IMG/VR virus record: IMGVR_UViG_3300032053_000625
Location: 1 to 21,319 of that record
DNA from: a virus
DNA length: 21,319 nt
Strand: one strand, 5' to 3'
Positions 12,079-19,798 of the stretch are shown here, one piece after another. The notes below the pieces were generated by a model that worked only from the letters and a program-made list of their open reading frames with translations, was not told the origin of the DNA and searched no databases. Each line of letters opens with the position of its first letter. The stretch's first letter is position 1. The translations under genes and the position numbers were made by a program.

Positions 12079-12437
12079 GCATTATTTATCTGAGCAACGA
12101 TAGAGGCTACAGCTTTGTGATCAGACTCGCTCATAGACACCTCTTCTTTTTGTTTTAATCTAACCTTACCCAACCATATTAAAAGAGTATTATCACCTTT
12201 ATCAGTTAAACCAAGAGCCTTCGCATATTGATGCGCTCTTAACAAAGAATCACCTTTTAATCTTTTTTGTTGAGCGTACGCCGAAAGTGACGACCCTTTT
12301 TCTTTCTGAAATCTTATATAAAGGATGTCCCTATCACATCCAAAATAACCTGCAATATCTGTGATAGTACATCCGGCAATAAGTAGATCGTCTACTTTCT
12401 TCCAATCGATATCGTATTTATTGTTCGGAGCAACCAT
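12024..12437 (-). CDS. terS: Terminase small subunit
   Basis: This 137-residue protein should recognise the packaging site and load TerL. Residues about 14-46 form a helix-turn-helix (DDLLIAGCTITDIAGYFGCD followed by RDILYIRFQKE), as in Terminase_2-like small subunits. A helical oligomerisation region follows (SLLRAHQYAKALGLTDKGDN) and then a Lys/Glu-rich, Ser-rich tail. The ATG overlaps the stop of the ParB-methyltransferase gene by one base (TAATG). TerL is encoded next. The last 55 bases overlap the plus-strand 65-residue gene. Confidence 0.75.
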   Translation of the reverse strand: MVAPNNKYDIDWKKVDDLLIAGCTITDIAGYFGCDRDILYIRFQKEKGSSLSAYAQQKRLKGDSLLRAHQYAKALGLTDKGDNTLLIWLGKVRLKQKEEVSMSESDHKAVASIVAQINNAQGVPEAPLSTDKESTKP

Positions 12438-13696
12438 TAAACTAACTCACCATTTTTCTTTATTGTGTAACTACGATTATTTTTTTCCATAAACCTCTTC
12501 CATCGATCAACGATAATGTCGCAATATGCAGGACTTAACTCAATACCATAACATATACGCCCAAGCTGCTCGGCTGCTATTAGTGTTGTTCCTGAGCCGA
12601 GGAATGGGTCGTAAACTCCCTCACCAACTGCGGTATTATTCCTCATAGGTCGAGCCATACATTCTATTGGTTTTTGGTTACTGTGAGCCGTGCGCTCTTC
12701 ACCGTCTTCTTTAGACTTTCCAAAAGCATTGAGAGAAGAAATTTCCCATATAGTAGATTCTTTTCTTGATCCCTGCCAATTATGCTGCTGTCCTTTCTTA
12801 AACGCGTACCAACAAGGCTCATGATGCCAATGATAATCACCTTTGGAAATAGCAAAATTTTGTTTAGACCAAATAATTTGTGATATAAGTTGAAACTCTG
12901 CTTCTTCCAAACTTTTTTGAACTTCTGCACATTTTGTCGCTGCATGCCAGACATAAACCACAGATCCCGTAAATAAATACCAAGCTAAAGACCAATTAAC
13001 TTTATCGTCATTTTGAACTTTTCCAAATGCTTTAGTATTTGATTTTTTTCCTCTTTTAGATCGCATAGCTTCACCGCCGTCTGACCAAGACGGATCATAC
13101 TCAACGCCATATGGAGGATCGGTTACCATCAATATTGGGGTTTGACCATTCAAAACTTTTTCTACGTATTCCGGTAAAGTGCTATCTCCGCATACAATAC
13201 GATGCTCATTAAGCTCATATACATCACCAAGCTTAGTCATAGCCTCTTCGTCTTTGCCCGGCTCTAAAACTTCCGAATCGTCTTCTTCCGTTTCACCTAA
13301 ATCTTGCACGTCATACTCTAACTGCTCAGGTGTAAACCCGGCTGCAAGTAAGTCTTCGATCTCATAATCCGCTGCTAGTATGTCGTAATCAAAAACCCCA
13401 AAAGTCTGATTGTCCTTAACCACCCTATCCTTGACCATCTCATCGCTTAAATCCTTCTCTATGATGCAGGGTATTTGCTTCCACTTCAATTTCTTGGCAG
13501 CCTGAACGCGTTGATTCCCAGCATATACTTGCAAGCATCCGTCTTTATCGTTGACTAATACAGGGCGAGACTGTAGGAAATTAGGGTCTTTAATCAAGCT
13601 ATCGCAAAGCTTAGTCATAGCCTCTTTCGTGATCTTGCGCGGATTACGTTCAAGCAATTTTAGCGACTTAATGTCAACGTTTTTGATCTCTTTCAT
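12437..13696 (-). CDS. ParB-like nuclease domain fused to DNA adenine/cytosine-N4 methyltransferase
   Basis: This 419-residue protein is a fusion seen in many phages. Residues about 5-130 are a ParB/sulfiredoxin-type domain with NPR (18-20), RPVLVN (44-49) and the AGNQRVQAAKKL motif (59-70). Residues about 160-405 are a beta-class amino-methyltransferase: motif IV TDPPYG (192-197), HSNQKPIE (338-345) and motif I DPFLGSGTT (363-371). It adds a methyl group to adenine N6 or cytosine N4; the target is not readable from sequence. As first gene of the packaging operon it could mark or protect DNA before packaging. No Shine-Dalgarno precedes the ATG, and a promoter lies so close that the mRNA may be leaderless. 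Confidence 0.88.
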   Translation of the reverse strand: MKEIKNVDIKSLKLLERNPRKITKEAMTKLCDSLIKDPNFLQSRPVLVNDKDGCLQVYAGNQRVQAAKKLKWKQIPCIIEKDLSDEMVKDRVVKDNQTFGVFDYDILAADYEIEDLLAAGFTPEQLEYDVQDLGETEEDDSEVLEPGKDEEAMTKLGDVYELNEHRIVCGDSTLPEYVEKVLNGQTPILMVTDPPYGVEYDPSWSDGGEAMRSKRGKKSNTKAFGKVQNDDKVNWSLAWYLFTGSVVYVWHAATKCAEVQKSLEEAEFQLISQIIWSKQNFAISKGDYHWHHEPCWYAFKKGQQHNWQGSRKESTIWEISSLNAFGKSKEDGEERTAHSNQKPIECMARPMRNNTAVGEGVYDPFLGSGTTLIAAEQLGRICYGIELSPAYCDIIVDRWKRFMEKNNRSYTIKKNGELV

Positions 13697-19040: not shown

Positions 19041-19778
19041 TTATTTTAACCCCATTAATATTTTGAAAGCTTCGCGACACTGAGCGGGCACTACGGCATT
19101 TCCAAGGGCGCGAGCTCTGTCCACCCTAAAGGGTATCCCATCATCCACTCCAAGAATTGGGGGTTTATTCTCTTCCCAATAAGATTTGGATAAAGCTCCC
19201 CTATTTTGTCTTGTAAGTCGTAACCGTGATCCTTCTTCAATCTGCTCGGACTGGGTGATCTGATAGGCTTGCTCGCTTGACTTGCCGTGGGAGTAGGCCA
19301 AACAAAACCATCTTTTCCGTATTTGTGGCGATCCTTCCTCTCTAGCTTCCTTAATAATCCATCTACAGCTATACCCGATGGAGGTAAGCGATCTAATAAC
19401 CCCCAATCCGCCCCTTGTGGTAATTGCGTTTGAGTTTTCCAAGAAGATAAATTTAGGCTTAATTTCGCGGCACAGCCTAACGATCTGGTAAAACAATCCG
19501 CTTCGCTCTCCTGCCAAGCCTTTTCCATTTCCAGCAACGCTAATATCCTGGCATGGAAAGCCACCAAATATGATATCGACGAGTCCCGTAAATTGCCCTC
19601 CTTGCAAGGTGTTAATGTTGTCCCAGATCGGAGCGTTATGTAAGCTTCCATCGGCCATTCTTGAAAGCAGGACTTTTTGACAATAGGGGTCAATTTCGCA
19701 ATATGCGATTGTTCTAGCCCACCCAGATAAAGCCACATCTATACCTCCAATACCGCTAAATAATGATAACCCATTCAT
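19041..19778 (-). CDS. DNA cytosine-5 methyltransferase
   Basis: Start chosen at ATG 19778 (MNGLSLFSGIGG, 245 residues), the usual opening of this family; a TTG at 19793 would add five residues. It transfers methyl from S-adenosylmethionine to cytosine C5. Motif I is LSLFSGIGGIDVAL (4-17), the catalytic loop GGFPCQDIS has Cys76, motif VI is ENS (114-116) rather than ENV, motif VIII is QIRKRWF (152-158), and motif X is RALGNAVVPAQ (223-233). The region between VIII and X, where target recognition sits, is only about 60 residues. It probably protects phage DNA from host restriction. A hairpin lies just upstream of the start. Most of the gene is also open in a second frame. Confidence 0.9.
   Translation of the reverse strand: MNGLSLFSGIGGIDVALSGWARTIAYCEIDPYCQKVLLSRMADGSLHNAPIWDNINTLQGGQFTGLVDIIFGGFPCQDISVAGNGKGLAGERSGLFYQIVRLCREIKPKFIFLENSNAITTRGGLGVIRSLTSIGYSCRWIIKEAREEGSPQIRKRWFCLAYSHGKSSEQAYQITQSEQIEEGSRLRLTRQNRGALSKSYWEENKPPILGVDDGIPFRVDRARALGNAVVPAQCREAFKILMGLK
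19091..19738 (-). CDS. Overlapping 215-codon frame inside the methyltransferase gene, possibly coding
   Basis: This frame is on the same strand as the C5 methyltransferase and open from ATG 19738 to TAG 19091. Its C-terminal half does not read like noise. It contains LPPSGIAVDGLLRKLE (118-133), GKDGFVWPTPTASQAS (141-156) and NPQFLEWMMGYPLGWTEL (192-209). From memory, phrases of the type 'WPTP.as' and 'lNP.fvEWlMGyP.GWt.L' recur at the end of phage proteins annotated as DNA methyltransferases. The last phrase is encoded by the same DNA as motif X (GVDDGIPFRVDRARALGNA). The N-terminal third shows nothing familiar, and translation may start internally (MEKAWQ, residue 71). No good ribosome site is seen at 19738. 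Confidence 0.4.
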   Translation of the reverse strand: MWLYLGGLEQSHIAKLTPIVKKSCFQEWPMEAYITLRSGTTLTPCKEGNLRDSSISYLVAFHARILALLEMEKAWQESEADCFTRSLGCAAKLSLNLSSWKTQTQLPQGADWGLLDRLPPSGIAVDGLLRKLERKDRHKYGKDGFVWPTPTASQASKPIRSPSPSRLKKDHGYDLQDKIGELYPNLIGKRINPQFLEWMMGYPLGWTELAPLEMP

Positions 19779-19798
19779 TTTTTCTTGATCCAACAGGA

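Follow-up and report, generated by a model that had tools for sequence, protein, structure and literature searches.

The window analysed here, a viral record of 21,319 bases, contains a C5 cytosine methyltransferase gene (alpha) and, in the +1 frame of the same strand, a second open frame of 215 codons (beta), for which the conclusion that it encodes a conserved protein is very well supported. Alpha, with motifs I–VIII and X, and beta, with a target-recognition region and motif IX, are very probably two overlapping genes whose products, if beta is translated as predicted, would assemble into one two-subunit C5 methyltransferase similar to M.EcoHK31I.

The alpha frame extends over positions 19041..19793 of the minus strand and encodes 250 amino acids when read from a TTG start, with the ATG at 19778 being more likely to be the real start than this TTG. 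In the Pfam search, alpha matched PF00145 with an E-value of 7e-38, and motifs I, IV (PCQ), VI (ENS/ENV), VIII, and X were mapped in it, which identifies the product as a C5 cytosine methyltransferase; motif X (GVDDGIPFRVDRARALGNAVVP) lies at 19086..19151 (minus strand). No motif IX was recognisable in alpha, so that motif IX and a recognition region do not stand in this one chain, and about 50 poorly conserved residues separate motifs VIII and X. The absence of this part was judged from the extent of the Pfam match, which covers profile positions 1–185 of 324 in alpha, whereas in the single-chain enzyme L212 it covers positions 1–321. The PF00145 match of the phage alpha proteins mostly ends near position 160–190 (217 in L097), ahead of motif IX. 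It should be noted that the record also contains, at 12437..13696 of the minus strand, an ORF for a probable second DNA methyltransferase, in which an amino-methyltransferase with a DPPYGVEY motif seems to be fused with a ParB-like domain.

Beta occupies positions 19091..19738 of the minus strand, starting with the ATG at 19738, and is supported by the list of open reading frames, codon shuffles, a match to PHROG 1008 (E = 6e-14), and the relatives described below. The sequence-only reading had correctly described this 215-codon frame, which is offset by +1 relative to alpha; its estimate of the chance of such a run, 61/64 per codon, was too crude, while the rarity itself was borne out, since shuffles that kept the alpha protein and codon usage fixed and permuted synonymous codons gave a mean of 62 codons for the longest open +1 run and a run of 215 in none of 5000 replicates. 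Both phrases that it had quoted from the translation are present, namely, WPTPTAS (19280..19300, minus strand), a target-recognition-like module with in-frame equivalents in single-chain enzymes, and INPQFLEWMMGYPLGWTEL (19112..19168, minus strand), which motif mapping and profile alignment mark as a motif IX-like segment. Its observation that the DNA of the latter phrase also encodes motif X of alpha was verified, the two motifs having the 40 bases at 19112–19151 in common. Compared with its relatives, beta of the window is shorter at both ends, without the basic C-terminal tail (RKKRSKS) and a few N-terminal residues.

The tblastn search with beta matched phage loci, in every case within a methyltransferase gene and in its +1 frame. 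The beta query from Acinetobacter phage ABMM1 yielded at least 599 confirmed stretches in viral contigs, and 80 loci were retained; they are the highest-scoring share of a larger set and are mostly metagenomic. Neither frame contained stops over approximately 240–350 codons in 79 of these 80 best loci of at least 599, versus 11–27 stops in the third frame. Since these loci had been picked by beta, a second retrieval was run with alpha proteins, blind to beta, and gave 82 non-redundant genes after the removal of duplicates and broken genes, with gene ends omitted from the stop counts. In the inner +1 frame of the 82 genes, 1 stop was counted, whereas synonymous-codon shuffles predicted approximately 396 (ABMM1 type, 73 genes: 1 stop, 329.8 expected; type of the window, nine genes with the window among them: none, 66.0 expected), these counts covering mutually related sequences and not independent events. 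The relatives, in which the sequence-only reading had proposed to look for stops in the second frame, keep it open. Stops in the other four frames (+2 and three antisense) occurred at 0.86–1.26 of expectation, and an overlap in an antisense frame was rejected, as all three antisense frames were near expectation. The large terminase was represented by only four relatives of the window gene as a control set, and flanking ORFs were used instead; the calibration on 241 neighbouring ORFs gave 2163 +1-frame stops versus 2184 expected. In 11 single-chain actinobacterial methyltransferases, 68 +1-frame stops were found versus 78.7 expected, i.e., no shadow effect. The depletion of stops is close to all-or-none and confined to one frame. 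Damaged beta frames were seen in L035 (three stops near the end) and L134 (one stop inside), and alpha was broken in L107 and L172.

The synonymous sites of alpha showed signs of selection on beta. The synonymous-site constraint in the enzyme frame, which had been suggested as a check, proved to be large: at 50–60% amino acid identity, synonymous codon identity over the null was 1.61 for alpha pairs (1.56 for the window family) versus 1.04 for control genes, in a pairwise comparison with 15 control pairs in this bin. Among close pairs, third-position changes relative to first- plus second-position changes amounted to 0.45 in alpha versus 1.66 in controls, with few pairs in the bins; a low ratio is expected because the third position of alpha would be the second position of beta. 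The identity of the shadow-frame protein in distant pairs was 0.454 versus 0.269 under the shuffle null. The profile of synonymous constraint had peaks at the start and in the motif IX/X segment and was lowest around two internal stretches. The TP of WPTPTA and the L, W, and M of LNPxWVEWLMG were kept as columns in beta and not in alpha. The second frame is consequently both open and under purifying selection beyond the constraint imposed by alpha, as in a conserved overlapping gene. That the frame is a passive by-product of the amino acids and codon use of alpha, with shadow similarity merely mirroring alpha homology, might have been suspected from the early database matches, all of which overlapped methyltransferase genes; however, a null holding the alpha protein and codon use constant predicts hundreds of inner stops where one was observed, synonymous sites are strongly constrained relative to controls, and some columns are conserved in the second frame only. 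A passive open frame was accordingly rejected by the calibrated shuffle null and is extremely improbable.

The nature of the C-terminal half of beta was clarified by enzymes in which the motifs are divided differently or not at all. In the mycobacteriophages Smooch (gp7/gp6) and Qobbit (gp83/gp82), the alpha frame stops once motif VIII has been encoded, and the PTP region, motif IX, and motif X lie in the second frame; the C5 enzyme is divided there between two overlapping ORFs, the second of which contains motif X (L195 798–1743 and L196 813–1827, respectively). Many other mycobacteriophage records contain two adjacent genes annotated as "DNA methylase". The relatives of the C-terminal ORF of Smooch and Qobbit in bacterial genomes were actinobacterial single-chain C5 methyltransferases, which have in one frame motifs I–VIII, at least one PTP module, the segment (L)xPxFxEWMMGxPxGWVT, and motif X. 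Such enzymes (L208, L209, L211–L213, L216, and L217) have the same PTP module and the EWMMGxPxGW motif IX as the phage proteins but differ in having all motifs in one frame and no conserved second frame. In a related methyltransferase of Saccharopolyspora kobensis (L218), the C-terminal part continues in another frame, possibly as a recent split or a damaged gene, and the methyltransferase copy of the E. coli PCP07014 prophage (L221 1501–2262) has an internal stop and is listed as a pseudogene. A profile of the C-terminal half of beta (WPTPTA ... NPxFxEWMMGYPxGW) was aligned by hhalign with exactly the VIII-to-X region of the single-chain enzymes (probability 96%, E = 2.4e-9), and a second beta alignment gave a similar result (95.6%, E = 1.2e-8). 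Thus, judging by profile alignment, the C-terminal half of beta is homologous to the VIII–X region of single-chain enzymes, motif IX included, and appears to be the enzyme's own missing part. The motif-IX region would then have moved out of frame, a point that goes beyond the sequence-only reading. The segment EWMMGYPxGW is presumably motif IX, given its position just ahead of motif X and general knowledge of the family.

Between 0 and 5 PTP modules were counted per beta, with a common spacing of about 29–47 residues, and this variation in number suggests that they are exchangeable recognition units. In the betas of L097, L184, and other loci, the module (W/L/F)PTPxA recurs as many as five times per protein at preferred spacings, a pattern resembling the multiple recognition domains of multispecific phage methyltransferases. 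Searches of Pfam and NCBIfam with beta matched no model, and sequence searches of the PDB gave no match. Two AlphaFold2 models of beta alone were poor (pLDDT 64 and 56; pTM 0.36 and 0.21), and Foldseek found no match for them in the PDB; such models fit a protein with an obligate partner but prove nothing. The N-terminal half of beta is conserved, had no detectable homologue, and may be a newly evolved scaffold.

The overlapping-gene option of the sequence-only reading was supported by the open frames of relatives, by synonymous constraint, and by conserved starts of beta's own. In the ABMM1 type, the ATG of beta lies four bases past the alpha start (ATGAATGAG); Asn2 of alpha was encoded by AAT in 69 of 69 genes, compared with 41% of Asn codons elsewhere, and this codon creates the ATG of beta. 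Some relatives have a beta ATG with no adjacent alpha start and with a purine-rich, ribosome-binding-like stretch upstream. In the window, L091, L092, and L181, beta starts later, at MWLYL, behind GGAGG (GGGGG in L091) derived from the motif I codons of alpha; in the window, this Shine–Dalgarno-like element (19744..19748, minus strand; codons GGA GGT) is located five bases upstream of the beta ATG.

These starts bear on the possibility that programmed frameshifting from alpha, rather than separate initiation, is the main source of the C-terminal half of beta, the product being a fusion of motifs I–VIII, the recognition region, and motif IX. The constant +1 offset and a join falling after motif VIII would suit such a mechanism, and in Smooch and Qobbit, with motif X also in the second frame, a frameshift would restore a normal enzyme. 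However, a fusion of the window type would be without motif X, which lies in the alpha frame; moreover, synonymous constraint is strong at the very start of beta (0.73 versus 0.34), and beta has ribosome-binding-like sequences of its own, in some cases with no alpha start beside its ATG. A frameshift product may occur but is not needed, and frameshifting as the main source is quite improbable. It is likewise unlikely that the conserved overlapping gene beta functions independently of methylation by alpha, for example as a regulator, an anti-restriction protein, or an inhibitor. The conserved N-terminal half without homologues and the phage annotations that give the beta frame alone, as a hypothetical protein, would be compatible with such a role, but single-chain enzymes possess, and alpha lacks, the region to which the C-terminal half is homologous. 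In addition, the alpha frame was open in all 80 best-scoring loci of the at least 599 found with the beta query, and no standalone beta gene without an alpha frame was found among these 80.

Two overlapping genes for one enzyme, the reading preferred here, have a counterpart among bacterial enzymes. In M.EcoHK31I, of which M.EaeI is a relative, the small subunit is encoded within the large-subunit gene in a different reading frame, and beta is similarly located in another frame of the alpha gene. C5 methyltransferases fold into two domains, of which the large one contains most of the motifs and the small one contains motif IX and the variable region (PMC3404938). The large subunit of M.EcoHK31I contains motifs I–VIII and X, and the small subunit contains motif IX alone, while in M.AquI motifs IX and X are both on the small subunit (PMC3404938). 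From this domain layout and these two splits, we infer the assembly of alpha with beta. Compared by description, alpha with I–VIII and X and a second polypeptide with motif IX correspond to M.EcoHK31I; the differences are that the genes described here are phage genes, that beta spans almost the whole alpha gene in many relatives, and that the PTP recognition-like modules are in beta, whereas the recognition domain of M.EcoHK31I was reported as predicted in the large subunit. M.AquI likewise divides the motifs of one enzyme between two polypeptides, but in the window motif X is on alpha; the M.AquI-like placement of IX and X together on the second polypeptide is seen in Smooch and Qobbit, which indicates that the split exists in more than one form. 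The M.EcoHK31I-like search for plasmid-borne restriction–modification relatives gave only five and four plasmid records. In a reading of the window, no restriction endonuclease gene was recognised next to the locus as a partner.

Database annotation reflects the overlap incompletely. The profiles of PHROG 1008, 26627, 27243, 35493, and 31772, built from phage proteins, match beta, and PHROG 1008 ("DNA methyltransferase") was matched by 63 of the 63 members of the beta alignment; these families are labelled "DNA methyltransferase" or unknown, and their annotation is silent on the frame and on the relation to the catalytic gene. The suspicion that out-of-frame annotations had created a false family was justified insofar as families from the second frame, PHROG 1008 among them, overlap methyltransferase genes and carry their name, but the second frame is not an artefact, because it encodes a conserved protein. 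Both frames are annotated as methyltransferases in Paenibacillus phage Genki, whereas in Vibrio phage 1.236.O and virus Rctr197k the beta frame alone is annotated. For L197 (1201–1899) and L198 (1231–1911), the open catalytic frame is absent from the public annotation, where the beta frame appears alone, as a hypothetical protein. A literature search of open papers found none describing the phage overlap; the two-subunit arrangement as such is known, and its proposed phage version is large and unrecognised.

In the mechanism proposed, the locus would consist of two completely overlapping genes for one enzyme. Alpha would be the catalytic polypeptide, with motifs I–VIII for cofactor binding and catalysis together with motif X, and beta, presumably with its own translation start in the +1 frame of the mRNA that encodes alpha, would supply through its C-terminal half the variable target-recognition region and the motif IX missing from alpha. 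The two most likely assemble into one active cytosine-5 methyltransferase, in which the PTP modules would set target specificity, and the assembled enzyme may shield phage DNA from restriction. A broader reading, to which we give about even chances, is that a very widespread group of phage C5 methyltransferases consists of two fully overlapping subunit genes, with the same nucleotides encoding motif IX in one and motif X in the other, that beta has swappable recognition modules of one to five PTP units, allowing new specificities to evolve in its frame with the catalytic frame accommodating the change, and that a single-chain enzyme was split by frame separation, its N-terminal shadow being overprinted into a new protein.

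It is uncommon for a long same-strand overlap, with one gene inside another, to be conserved in many phages, and the two products of this overlap probably belong to one enzyme. If this is true, many of the phage methyltransferases that annotation presents as complete are only halves of an enzyme, alpha would be inactive when assayed by itself, and hundreds of database entries lack one of the genes or take their name from the wrong frame. The group would then offer a testable natural case of a protein split by a change of frame, as well as a natural case of the evolution of recognition modules under double coding.
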